64,000 nucleotides of DNA from Brevundimonas diminuta. GTDB lineage: Bacteria; Pseudomonadota; Alphaproteobacteria; Caulobacterales; Caulobacteraceae. The stretch spans positions 1,612,001-1,676,000 of the forward strand of contig NZ_CP073063.1 in the NCBI RefSeq assembly GCF_022654015.1, given 5' to 3'. A program made the position numbers and the translations under genes. Shown piece by piece: positions 45,903 to 49,368 of the stretch; position 1 is the first letter of the stretch; the number at the start of each line of letters is the position of its first letter. A model generated the notes under the pieces. It was not told the DNA's origin and searched no databases. It saw nothing but the letters and a program-made list of their open reading frames with translations.

Positions 45903-47273
45903 ATGACACGCTGGACCCCCGAAAGCTGGAGAACCAAGACCGCCCTGCATATGCCGGCGGACTATCCGGATCCAACCGCCCTCGCGCGGGTGGAAGACGA
46001 GCTGCGCGCCTTGCCGCCGCTGGTCTTCGCCGGCGAAGCGCGGCGCCTGACGTCGAAGCTGGCGCAGGTGGAGCGGGGTGACGCCTTCCTGCTTCAGGGC
46101 GGCGACTGCGCCGAGAGCTTCAAGGAGTTCTCGACCGACAATATCCGCGACACCTTCCGCCTGATCCTTCAGATGGCGGTCGTCCTGACCTTCGCCGGAC
46201 GTAAGCCGGTGGTGAAGGTGGGGCGGATCGCGGGCCAGTTCGCCAAGCCTCGCTCGTCGCCGCTGGAGGAGATCGACGGCGTCGAACTGCCCAGCTATCG
46301 CGGCGACATCATCAACGGCATGGGCTTCACGCCGGAAGAGCGTGCACCCGATCCGCAGCGTCTGATCCGCGCCTATAACCAGTCGGCCTCGACGCTGAAC
46401 CTGCTGCGGGCCTTCGCCGGCGGCGGCTATGCCGATCTGTACAATATCCATCGCTGGACCCTGGGCTTTGCCGGCGACAACGCCGCCGGCGCCCAGTACC
46501 GCGAGCTGGCCGACAAGATCACCGAGGCCCTAGCCTTCATGGAGGCGGTCGGCGTCACGCCCGAGACGCATCCGGACCTCAGCCGGGTCGAGGTCTTCAC
46601 CAGCCACGAGGCCCTGCTGCTGAACGTCGAAAGCGCCCTGACGCGTCTGGACGGCGGTTCCGGCGAATGGTTCGACACCTCGGCCCACATGCTGTGGATC
46701 GGCGAGCGCACGCGTCAGCTGGACGGCGCCCACGTCGAGTTCATGAAGGGGATCAAGAACCCCATCGGCGTGAAGTGCGGGCCGACCATGACCGCCGACG
46801 ACCTGCTGCCCCTGATCGACGCCTTGAACCCGGACAATGTCTCCGGTCGTCTCACGCTGATCGGACGCTTCGGTCACGACAAGGTGGGCGAGCGCCTGCC
46901 CAAGCTGATGCGCGAAGTGAAGGCCTCGGGCCGCAAGGTCATCTGGTCCATCGACCCGATGCACGGCAATACGCTGAAGGCCGGCAACGGCTACAAGACC
47001 CGGCCGTTCGACCGTATCCTCGGCGAAGTCCGGACCTTCATCGATGTGGCCGAGGCGGAAGGCGTCCACCCCGGCGGCGTCCATCTGGAAATGACCGGCC
47101 AGAACGTCACCGAATGCATCGGCGGCGCCCAGGCGGTGACCGAGGACGACTTGTCCAACCGCTATCACACCCACTGCGACCCGCGCCTGAACGCCGATCA
47201 GGCGCTGGAGCTGGCCTTCCTGGTGGCTGAGCGGCTGAAGGCCGGACGGGTGGCGCAGTCGGTGGCGGCCTAG
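45903..47273 (+). CDS. aroG: Class II DAHP synthase
   Basis: 456 residues, the plant/mycobacterial-type 3-deoxy-D-arabino-heptulosonate-7-phosphate synthase, first step of the shikimate pathway (PEP + erythrose-4-P). Signatures: [48 protein letters not shown] and [15 protein letters not shown]. The N-terminus begins WTPESWRTK as usual. First gene of an aromatic amino acid cluster. Confidence 0.95.
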
Positions 47274-47363: not shown

Positions 47364-47939
47364 ATGCAAGTAGCGACTCCAAGTGAGGAGAAGCCTGGAC
47401 GGGTCGCCTATCAGGGCGCGCCCGGATCGTTCAGCCATGAGGCTTGTCTGGCCCTGCGTCCGTGGGACGAGGCTGTGGCGTTCGAAACCTTCGCCCAGGC
47501 CCTGGATGCGCTGCGCGCCGGCGACTGCGGGTGCGCCCTGATCCCTGTCGAGAACTCGACCATCGGCGTGGTCGAGCCGGCGGCGACGCTGGTCGGTGCG
47601 CTTGGCGTGGAGCCGGTCGCTCAGGTCTGGCGGCCGATCCGTCATGCGCTGATGGCGATCGACGGCGCGCGTCTGTCCGATATCCGAACGGTGGAAAGCC
47701 ACCCGATCGCCTTGGCTCAGTGCAAGGACACGCTGGCTGGTTTGAATGTCGAGGTTGTCGAGCATTTCGATACCGCAGGCGCGGCGCGCGATGTCGCTAA
47801 AGCGGGTGATCCCACACGGGCGGCCATCGCCCCGGTCGGCGCCGCCGAGGTGTACGGCCTGTCGATCCTGCGCAACGACTTGCAGGATTCCGGCGATAAT
47901 CAGACGCGTTTTGTCCTGTTGAGCTTCCCTGAGGGTTGA
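47364..47939 (+). CDS. pheA: Prephenate dehydratase without ACT domain
   Basis: 191 residues, covering only the catalytic domain: YQGAPGSFSHEA at the start, PVENSTIG (61-68), ESHPIALAQC and the active-site T181-R182-F183. It converts prephenate to phenylpyruvate. Family enzymes usually add a roughly 80-residue Phe-binding ACT domain, absent here because the stop falls right after the TRF strand. Confidence 0.9.
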   Translation: MQVATPSEEKPGRVAYQGAPGSFSHEACLALRPWDEAVAFETFAQALDALRAGDCGCALIPVENSTIGVVEPAATLVGALGVEPVAQVWRPIRHALMAIDGARLSDIRTVESHPIALAQCKDTLAGLNVEVVEHFDTAGAARDVAKAGDPTRAAIAPVGAAEVYGLSILRNDLQDSGDNQTRFVLLSFPEG

Positions 47940-48010
47940 CGGCGCACGGTCTTTGCGTCCTTAAGACACCCACGGGTCGCAACACGATCCGCATAACCCG
48001 GAACCGGACC

Positions 48011-48112
48011 ATGTCCCGCCTGCGCGCTCTTTCTGTTTCTTTCGACCGTTCGCGCGCGGTTTCCGGCCTCTATTTCGGCTACGGCTTTTACGGCTTTCGA
48101 TACGCCGGCTGA
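48011..48112 (+). promoter_or_regulatory. Phe/Tyr-rich leader peptide (attenuator) upstream of chorismate mutase
   Basis: 33-codon ORF from ATG 48011 whose second half, GLYFGYGFYGFRYAG, has seven Phe/Tyr in eleven positions (four Tyr, three Phe, with one more Phe earlier). It lies 109 nt before the chorismate mutase start. A hairpin (48153-48171) and an alternative CGCCGG/CCGGCG pairing (48103, 48146) follow. The arrangement is that of amino acid attenuators, sensing Phe-tRNA and Tyr-tRNA charging. Confidence 0.75.
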
Positions 48113-48152
48113 GGCGTCGGGCGCACTTCGTCCCTGACTGCTTCACCGGCGA

Positions 48153-48171
48153 CCGCTCTGGACCAGAGCGG
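48153..48171 (+). terminator. Attenuator hairpin
   Basis: CCGCTCTG and CAGAGCGG form an uninterrupted 8-bp stem over GAC. The downstream tract CTGTTCGCTCCTG is only mildly T-rich, so termination may be Rho-dependent or weak. Located 41 nt after the leader peptide stop. Confidence 0.5.
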
Positions 48172-48221
48172 CTGTTCGCTCCTGCACATATCGAATCCCA
48201 GAATGCCGAAAGCCCTTTTCC

Positions 48222-48980
48222 ATGCCCCATTCCCACCTTCAGCAAGTCTGGCCTGACATGGCCGACCTGACCCCCGAACAGCAGGCGCTGGCCGCCCTGC
48301 GCGCCGAGATCGACGGCATCGACGACCATATTCTGGCGCTGTTCGAGCAACGCCTGGCCATCGCCGCCACCGTCGGCCGGGCCAAGGACGCGCCCACCGG
48401 CCCGCACACCAAGCTGCGTCCCGATCGCGAGCAGACCGTCCTCTCGCGCATGCTTAAGCAGGCCAAGCCGGAGAACGCCGAGGCGGTCGAACATCTGTGG
48501 CGCGAGATCGTCGGATGGGGCCTGGCGCGCCAGGGCCGGCTTCAGGTCCAGGTCTGGGCCCCGATCGAACCGACCCGCGCCTATGACGGCGCGCGCCTGC
48601 GTTTCGGGGCCGCCGCCGACATCAAGATGGTGCGCGATCCGCAGAAGGCCCTGGCCTTCGCCGCCGAAGGCCACGGGATCGCCGTGCTGGCGATCAACAC
48701 AGAAGACGCCTGGTGGATGGGCCTGCGTCGCGAGTGGTCGATGCTGAGCGTGTTCGACGGCTACGGCGGCGAGACGCCGACGTCTTTGGCGGTGGGCAAG
48801 ATCGATCCGCCGGCTCTGCCCAAGGGCCGGCGCGTGGTGGTCACTGCGGGTGGGGACGCCGGCGACGGCGGCGGCGCGCGGCGCTGGGGCCTGAACACGC
48901 ATCACGGCTGGACCATTGCCCTGACCGACGCCGATCTGGCGCCGGGCGACGCAGAGGGTTGTGTCGGCGCGATCGGTTAG
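48222..48980 (+). CDS. Chorismate mutase (AroQ) with uncharacterised C-terminal domain
   Basis: 252 residues. The AroQ helical domain at about 20-100 shows LRAEIDGIDDHILALFEQRL, IAATVGRAKD and LRPDREQTVLSRML with the expected Arg, Lys and Glu active-site positions. It makes prephenate, the common precursor of Phe and Tyr. The remaining 150 residues are not PheA or TyrA catalytic sequence and are unrecognised. A second Met at 48258 could be the start. Confidence 0.82.
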   Translation: MPHSHLQQVWPDMADLTPEQQALAALRAEIDGIDDHILALFEQRLAIAATVGRAKDAPTGPHTKLRPDREQTVLSRMLKQAKPENAEAVEHLWREIVGWGLARQGRLQVQVWAPIEPTRAYDGARLRFGAAADIKMVRDPQKALAFAAEGHGIAVLAINTEDAWWMGLRREWSMLSVFDGYGGETPTSLAVGKIDPPALPKGRRVVVTAGGDAGDGGGARRWGLNTHHGWTIALTDADLAPGDAEGCVGAIG

Positions 48981-49368
48981 CCCCGTCCGCGTTTGAGGCA
49001 AACCCGAGTTCTTGACTGGCGGCTGCTATGCAATCGCCGCCAGCCATTCATTTCGTCTAAGCGAAATCGCATCTTTTCAACGGCTTGACGGACGGTATCG
49101 GCTTTTTGCTGAGCCCGACGTTAAACGCGGTTATGATGCCGGCTCGGTCTTTGACAGCGCCATTCCTCGACGAGACTCCGGCTCGTTCCACTGTTTTCCC
49201 GAGTCCAGCCTTCAGGCCCGAACTGCACTTCGTTGCACAGTGCAATTCGGGCTCTGTTGTTTTCCTCAACGAAAACAACGATGCGCCGCGTCAATTGCAC
49301 GCCATTGCACCACTTTTCACACGTGCAATTCGCCGGCTTATGTCCAGAAACGGATGCGGCCCTTCTTT
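48981..49368. promoter_or_regulatory. Intergenic region with TTGCAC repeats
   Basis: 388 nt without a supported gene. Contains a hairpin (49216-49252, GCCCGAACTGCAC with GTGCAATTCGGGC, one mismatch) followed by T-rich sequence, the perfect palindrome TTGCACAGTGCAA (49233-49245), TTGCAC at 49295 and 49305 (10-nt period), and GTGCAATTCG again at 49323. The hairpin may end the chorismate mutase transcript; the half sites look like operator repeats. Confidence 0.5.

Follow-up and report, generated by a model that had tools for sequence, protein, structure and literature searches.

The window analysed here is a 64,000-nucleotide stretch of Brevundimonas diminuta DNA (contig NZ_CP073063.1, positions 1,612,001 to 1,676,000). 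It carries a short open reading frame (ORF) between the genes for prephenate dehydratase (PDT) and chorismate mutase (CM), beginning 71 nt past the PDT stop codon. An initial annotation had described this ORF as a leader peptide rich in both Phe and Tyr and had suggested that it acts, with competing hairpins, as a dual-amino-acid attenuator of the CM gene. The analysis reported here points to a cis-acting translational attenuator of CM, a reading that is given a probability of about 0.72 on the strength of the sequence comparisons described below.

The last 15 residues of the leader comprise four Tyr and three Phe, as originally described. When both strands of the window were read for frames that run at least 12 codons to a stop, this content ranked first of 1,809; the runner-up frames have 3 such residues. 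The gene that follows (48222-48980) was confirmed as a CM_2 chorismate mutase (Pfam PF01817, E 8.5e-16), and the predicted fold of its C-terminal region resembles that of PDT. The CM step is common to Phe and Tyr and is not shared by Trp. Across 92 unique leaders, the 12 codons before the conserved core TTTCGATAC are 22% Tyr and 16% Phe with no Trp, and both Phe and Tyr occur there in 89 of them (Phe only in 1, Tyr only in 2). Loss of Phe and Tyr codons from orthologous leaders, which the initial annotation had named as evidence that would count against its proposal, was looked for and not seen.

The leader appears to be conserved in two different ways. Counted back from the conserved TTT, Phe or Tyr occupies codon -3 in 80 of 87 unique leaders and codon -2 in 77 of 87, and the two amino acids replace each other at both positions. 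Synonymous variation is found at some of these codons (TTC 35 and TTT 27 at -3; TAT 18 and TAC 14 at -5) and is scarce at others (TAC 66 and TAT 5 at -2; Tyr at -8 always TAT). The stretch GGC TTT CGA TAC GCC GGC TGA is kept at the nucleotide level across leaders, and two of its codons are rare in the 4 nearby genes counted (TTT 2 vs. TTC 36; CGA 1 vs. CGC 49). Because 99 sites were gathered by the exact core, its invariance is to be judged on the 28 loci found by protein search, of which 27 have TTTCGATACGCCGG and 1 has TTTCGACACGCCGG. Since codons vary upstream and nucleotides are held downstream despite the rare TTT and CGA, the leader is read as being under two constraints, with amino acid identity maintained upstream and RNA pairing downstream.

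A protein search found CM in 130 of 149 genomes of the family Caulobacteraceae. The leader is present in 28 of the 30 best CM loci fetched: 23 in Brevundimonas, the genus of the window (g1), 2 each in g3 and g10, and 1 in g9 (g3, g6, g9, g10 and g17 denote other Caulobacteraceae genera). The two leaderless loci (L029, L030) belong to g6, where CM is only 36-42% identical and no upstream frame compares with the leader in Phe/Tyr content (15 residues contain 3 or fewer). When 390 family genomes were scanned for the core DNA pattern, it was found in 126 (g1 120/131, g3 2/2, g10 3/3, g9 1/1) and was absent from the remaining 18 genera. The 11 pattern-negative g1 genomes comprise 3 with a variant core (TTTCGACGCGCCGG), 2 with CM cut by a contig end, 5 with no CM match and G092, which has only a weak partial CM match; with variant cores included, 123 of 131 g1 genomes have the leader. 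The 28 sites from the protein search and the 99 from the DNA pattern alone make up 127 distinct sites. CM lies directly downstream in 126 of them, the contig of the last one ending too early, and an ATG-started ORF of 20-37 codons is likewise present in 126. Conservation among relatives, suggested by the initial annotation as a check together with covariation, is borne out by these sites and by the covarying RNA described below. Two assemblies, G205 (L091, L092) and G209 (L095, L096), carry two leader-CM sites each, which may reflect mixed assemblies or a second divergent copy (L091).

Searches beyond the family were also performed. An RNA model (R1), run with stricter filters that lose weak matches, gave 22 strong matches in 249 genomes of the order, all in g1, and 57 weak rows (E 6e-5 to 0.1). 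In the 12 weak rows inspected, no Phe/Tyr leader before an aromatic gene was seen, and most lay inside longer open frames. A wider pattern scan of contigs gave at least 120 stretches, and among the 80 loci listed from them 68 end in FR[YH]AG; one of these, L198 (Microbacteriaceae), is without a Phe/Tyr cluster. The other 12 of the 80 come from other bacteria and look like chance matches (19 of the 80 were viewed). The candidate site L216 was rejected, as it lies within a ParA-like gene, judging from its translation.

The region from the later part of the leader to the CM start is predicted to be structured. All structure computations considered nested folds only. Shuffled versions of 48056-48236 have a mean folding energy of -54.9 kcal/mol, and the native sequence reaches -73.8 (z -4.5), a value that none of 200 shuffles attained. 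Four helices were predicted (Table 1): P1 joins the GGCUUUCGAUA region of the leader to the stretch before CM, and P2/P3 and P4 are nested within it. Hairpins are thus predicted, as the initial annotation had claimed, but they are compatible with each other rather than mutually exclusive. The span originally given, 48011..48171, is also incomplete, as the key 3' half of P1 (48189-48214), at the CM ribosome-binding site, lies beyond it. When 56 sites, giving 55 distinct rows, were aligned by fitting to the model, a kind of fit that leans towards structure, 93.5% of cells pair vs. 36-54% when slid, and 14 pairs of P2-P4 are changed on both sides vs. 6.1 in shuffles (0/500). In an unfitted MAFFT alignment of 28 sites, 88.1% of cells are paired vs. 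37-53% when slid, and the covariation score lies above all 500 shuffles. An RNAalifold consensus of 52 sites recovered P2 and part of P4 and did not recover P1 or P3; P1 was therefore examined by a separate test.

Table 1. Features of the leader-CM locus, in positions of the window.
Feature	Position	Strand	Remarks
Class II DAHP synthase	45903..47273	+	upstream gene, same strand as leader
PDT, 191 aa	47364..47939	+	PDT domain only, without ACT domain
Leader ORF, 33 codons, MSRLRALSVSFDRSRAVSGLYFGYGFYGFRYAG	48011..48112	+	ATG at 48011; stop TGA at 48110-48112
Phe/Tyr codon cluster YFGYGFYGFRY	48071..48103	+	mostly Phe/Tyr at codons -3 and -2, counted back from conserved TTT
P1 5' strand (anti-Shine-Dalgarno) GGCTTTCGATA	48092..48102	+	within last leader codons; nearly invariant
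P2 5' strand CGCCGGCTGAGGC	48103..48115	+	overlaps leader stop codon
P3, GTCGGG...CCCTGAC	48116..48138	+	variable covarying hairpin extending P2
P2 3' strand GCTTCACCGGCG	48140..48151	+	
P4 hairpin CCGCTCT...AGAGCGG	48153..48171	+	both sides changed in 4/7 pairs
P1 3' strand, first element TATCGAA	48189..48195	+	complementary to leader TTCGATA
P1 3' strand, second element GCCGAAAGCC	48205..48214	+	holds putative CM Shine-Dalgarno GAAAG
Putative CM Shine-Dalgarno GAAAG	48208-48212	+	9 nt before start codon
CM	48222..48980	+	CM_2 domain, residues 26-104; PDT-like C-terminal region

In the separate test, the 5' strand of P1 was set against the 40 nt that precede the CM start. The longest Watson-Crick helix that the two can form averages 7.6 bp, vs. 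3.8 for shuffled sequences and 4.0 for coding windows, and reaches at least 7 bp in 113 of 126 loci. TCGAAA or CGAAAG occurs in 70 of 81 non-redundant ribosome-binding-site regions vs. 105 of 6,678 background windows. GAAAG is found within these 40 nt in 112 of 126 loci, at a spacing of 7-10 nt from the start in 111, and is read as the putative Shine-Dalgarno sequence (SD) of CM because it would fit CUUUC at the 16S 3' end. CM starts were initially picked with a preference for an upstream AAAG (in 13 of 126 loci an in-frame candidate precedes the one picked); when they were chosen by alignment only, 124 of 126 were unchanged, the helix of at least 7 bp was kept in 113, and GAAAG was found in 111, all 111 at 7-10 nt. 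When the ensemble is free, pairing of the SD with the leader has a mean probability above 0.5 in 92% of the 126 loci, and a simulated ribosome footprint with its A site at codon -2 reduces this to 13%; where GAAAG is missing near the start (14 loci), a fixed position took the place of the SD. With the footprint 5 codons further upstream the SD stays closed (unpaired fraction 0.13), so it matters where the Phe/Tyr cluster lies. What the sequences support is the conservation of the leader, its codon content, covariation in P2-P4, and the complementarity of P1 and its location at the putative SD.

Several results weigh against this interpretation. Most loci were gathered via the exact core motif. 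The unfitted alignment has 8 doubly changed pairs, a count that 68 of 500 shuffles attained and that lies within the 3-9 of the slid controls. P1 itself shows little covariation because its 5' strand is almost invariant. Taking the first in-frame start instead lowers the loci with a helix of at least 7 bp to 100 of 126 and those with GAAAG to 101 of 126. Opening of the SD by the footprint is partial: its mean unpaired fraction goes from 0.22 to 0.48, and the value rises clearly in 80 of the 126 loci and falls clearly in 13. When the flanks were shuffled and GAAAG kept, pairing was 0.57 vs. 0.82 for the native sequence (native higher in 55 of 68), so part of the pairing is due to GAAAG opposite CUUUC alone. 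In 13 of 126 loci P1 has no run longer than 6 bp. TTTCGAT does not pair with the ribosome-binding site in g3 (L026, L027) or in L091, the divergent second copy of G205; in 8 of the other 10 short-P1 loci this pairing still exceeds 0.5 in the ensemble.

A divergent relative was found in genus g17 (2 genomes), where there is no match to the core pattern, nor to the RNA model at the PDT-CM site. The g17 leader lies between PDT and a stand-alone CM and ends in TRVYYGYRSSAQFSGRQG (G017) or TRLYYGYRSSAQFSGRQG (G031). There, GGCTATCGC stands opposite GCGAAAGCC with 8 of 9 pairs, the GAAAG within GCGAAAGCC lies 8 nt before the CM start, and the inner hairpin is different. As judged from these sequences, the Tyr/Phe codons, the predicted SD pairing and the target are kept in g17, and the sequence and the inner hairpin are changed. 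The CM beside PDT in these genomes (L296, L297) is a second, stand-alone CM with its own Tyr/Phe leader.

The occurrence of the leader coincides with the loss of the ACT domain from PDT. The PDT C-terminus was compared across the five leader genera and 11 other Caulobacteraceae genera. In the leader genera, PDT stops just past the catalytic domain, 0-6 residues beyond the match (g1 23/23 plus G092, g3 2/2, g9 1/1, g10 2/2, g17 2/2; G027 of g10 is cut by its contig), and representatives of the other genera have 101-108 extra residues. The PDT of the window covers 4-181 of the 283 positions of PRK11899. One of the 11 longer proteins, full-length, matches PRK11899 to 280 of 283 and the ACT-bearing PDT structure 6vh5 throughout; in a Pfam scan of two ACT-region tails, one gave a match below the curated cutoff and the other none. 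Within 450 nt upstream of PDT, representatives of these 11 genera have no comparable Phe/Tyr-rich frame (at most 3 in 15 residues). In a PDT-domain tree the 11 ACT-bearing rows group together (95/92) and the ACT label needs two changes; of the 30 rows of this tree, which draws on 10 of 23 g1 loci, one (L299) is an outlier, unlabelled and very long, and the bootstrap had yet to stabilise. The association of ACT loss with the leader is probably one evolutionary event and so counts once. In g9 and g10, PDT is not adjacent to the leader. In G092 (L298, L299), an ACT-less PDT is followed by a gene that looks transporter-like from its translation, and a second PDT-like gene lies at a distance. No leader was found in this genome, whose CM match is only weak, and the chorismate mutase step may have been lost or replaced there.

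How could such a leader control CM? A consensus scan of 47850-48300 found no sigma-70-type promoter and 0 terminator-like sites. Because an intrinsic terminator was not found and a conserved long-range helix covers the CM ribosome-binding site, control is most likely exerted at translation rather than transcription. When Phe- and Tyr-tRNA are charged, ribosomes would complete the leader and depart. The RNA would then close, with the last leader codons GGCUUUCGAUA pairing with AUCGAA/CCGAAAGCC just before the CM start; P2/P3, as inner stem, and hairpin P4 would clamp P1, and the GAAAG SD would thus be hidden. When Phe or Tyr is short, a ribosome would stall as one of the final Phe/Tyr codons occupies its A site, and would cover the anti-SD strand; P1 would be blocked, the SD freed and CM made. 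We infer translation of the leader, stalling, the direction of control and separate sensing of each amino acid. The competition is between the ribosome and one helix, not between hairpins. Of the dual-amino-acid attenuator proposed earlier, the comparisons support a conserved Phe/Tyr leader before CM, together with a covarying RNA; competing hairpins in the sense of a classical terminator and antiterminator are not supported. A more specific version, in which the attenuator reads Phe- and Tyr-tRNA, acts on CM alone and arose with the loss of ACT from PDT, gene-level control having replaced allosteric control, is tentative and on balance doubtful.

Could the same leader act on transcription? 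If the leader were read quickly and CM left untranslated, Rho, for example, could end the transcript, and stalling would protect it; this could add to translational control. According to passages of PMC2659441, amino acid operons with a leader-peptide attenuator are commonly controlled at transcription. A CM mRNA without translating ribosomes would be well suited to Rho. The lack of an intrinsic terminator in the scanned region counts against this possibility, and a conserved 3' strand at the putative SD, whose GAAAG keeps a spacing of 7-10 nt to the start codon in 111 of 126 loci, fits control of translation initiation. Transcription attenuation is accordingly considered unlikely, though it is the strongest of the alternatives.

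The two other explanations are much less probable. If the conserved peptide end GFRYAG had a function of its own, arresting the ribosome as a nascent peptide or serving as a small protein, the Phe/Tyr richness would be a by-product. FRYAG is strongly conserved, and the Sinorhizobium leader peptide peTrpL acts in trans, according to parts of PMC7298713. The conservation of this end, however, is at the nucleotide level and includes wobble positions (TTTCGATACGCCGG in 27 of the 28 protein-found loci), and its bases pair in P1 and P2. The peptide end also varies in four relatives (FRRAG, FRHAG, YFRYAGEAVVRG and YYGYRSSAQFSGRQG), with pairing to the CM ribosome-binding site kept in three of them and lost in the g3 form, and the residues upstream of it swap Phe and Tyr; a peptide function is thus quite improbable. 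Nor is much expected of a static element that senses nothing and serves translational coupling or RNA stability in the gene cluster, a slightly fainter prospect still. Translation coupling is common and the leader sits between two genes in the window, yet such an element leaves unexplained both the Phe/Tyr codons without Trp and the occurrence in g9 and g10, where PDT is elsewhere. A translational attenuator of CM thus remains the preferred reading.

Other features were recorded in the window. Among Rfam 15 covariance models, there was no match up to E = 5 in 47900-48300 and none in 47850-48300. At 717-880 the window matches the Caulobacter small RNA family CC2171 (Rfam RF01867). Several TTGCAC/GTGCAA-like words were seen by eye at 49205-49345, in the gap between CM and a downstream panC-like gene on the opposite strand.

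If the proposed attenuator is real, it would be a two-amino-acid (Phe and Tyr) attenuator outside the Rfam families, acting on translation initiation at a metabolic branch point. The lineages in which an enzyme has lost its allosteric domain would also be those whose preceding enzyme is under RNA-based control, a testable case in which one regulatory layer of metabolism replaces another. The logic of the search, which looks for product codons opposite an SD with no terminator, may reveal cases that terminator-based screens miss.

Several known systems share parts of this design. Attenuators as a class have a short conserved ORF rich in product codons and conserved RNA structure overlapping the regulatory codons, and both were found here, the structure more weakly on the unfitted alignment. 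The classical pheL/trpL arrangement was not found: 47850-48300 holds no terminator-like site, and P1-P4 co-occur in the predicted fold. The gammaproteobacterial pheA leader encodes Phe only and works through a transcription terminator. Like the present leader, it is a product-codon-rich leader peptide before a gene with chorismate mutase activity (a CM/PDT fusion); here Phe and Tyr are both encoded, no terminator was found, and CM is apart from PDT. E. coli thrL (Thr/Ile) and ilvL (Ile/Val/Leu) are classical transcription attenuators of other pathways in which, as here, a single leader encodes several amino acids of a shared pathway. In translational attenuators of the ermC type, a stalled ribosome frees a hidden ribosome-binding site, as is proposed here, but stalling is caused by a drug and the nascent peptide rather than by a missing aminoacyl-tRNA.

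Among the papers that text searches listed, none describes a Phe/Tyr leader of CM in its title or abstract opening, and Vitreschak et al. 2004 (FEMS Microbiol Lett), cited in a passage of PMC1273637, may mention one. The portions available of PMC10272879 and PMC1273637 treat other elements, and terms such as phenylalanine, tyrosine and pheA are absent from PMC2965389. Portions of PMC2659441 name pheA among leader-peptide attenuators. According to excerpts of PMC1262725, its authors saw no conserved RNA structure at the Phe or Tyr operons of Actinobacteria; attenuators for Phe and T-boxes for Tyr are named there from elsewhere. The closest described design found is, by analogy, the LEU element of actinobacterial leuA, in which a run of leucine codons pairs with the leuA SD (Seliverstov et al. 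2005, PMC1262725, in part). Membership in the LEU element proper was rejected, since the target here is CM and the codons are Phe/Tyr instead of a leucine run before leuA. As far as that description goes, the LEU element reads leucine only, at leuA and in Actinobacteria, with an inner part that forms a pseudoknot or an alternative hairpin; the leader described here has Phe and Tyr codons, precedes CM in Caulobacteraceae and encloses nested P2/P3 and P4, as predicted by nested-only folding. In both, the basal stem that closes off further structure would form between the regulatory codon run and the SD of the enzyme gene.
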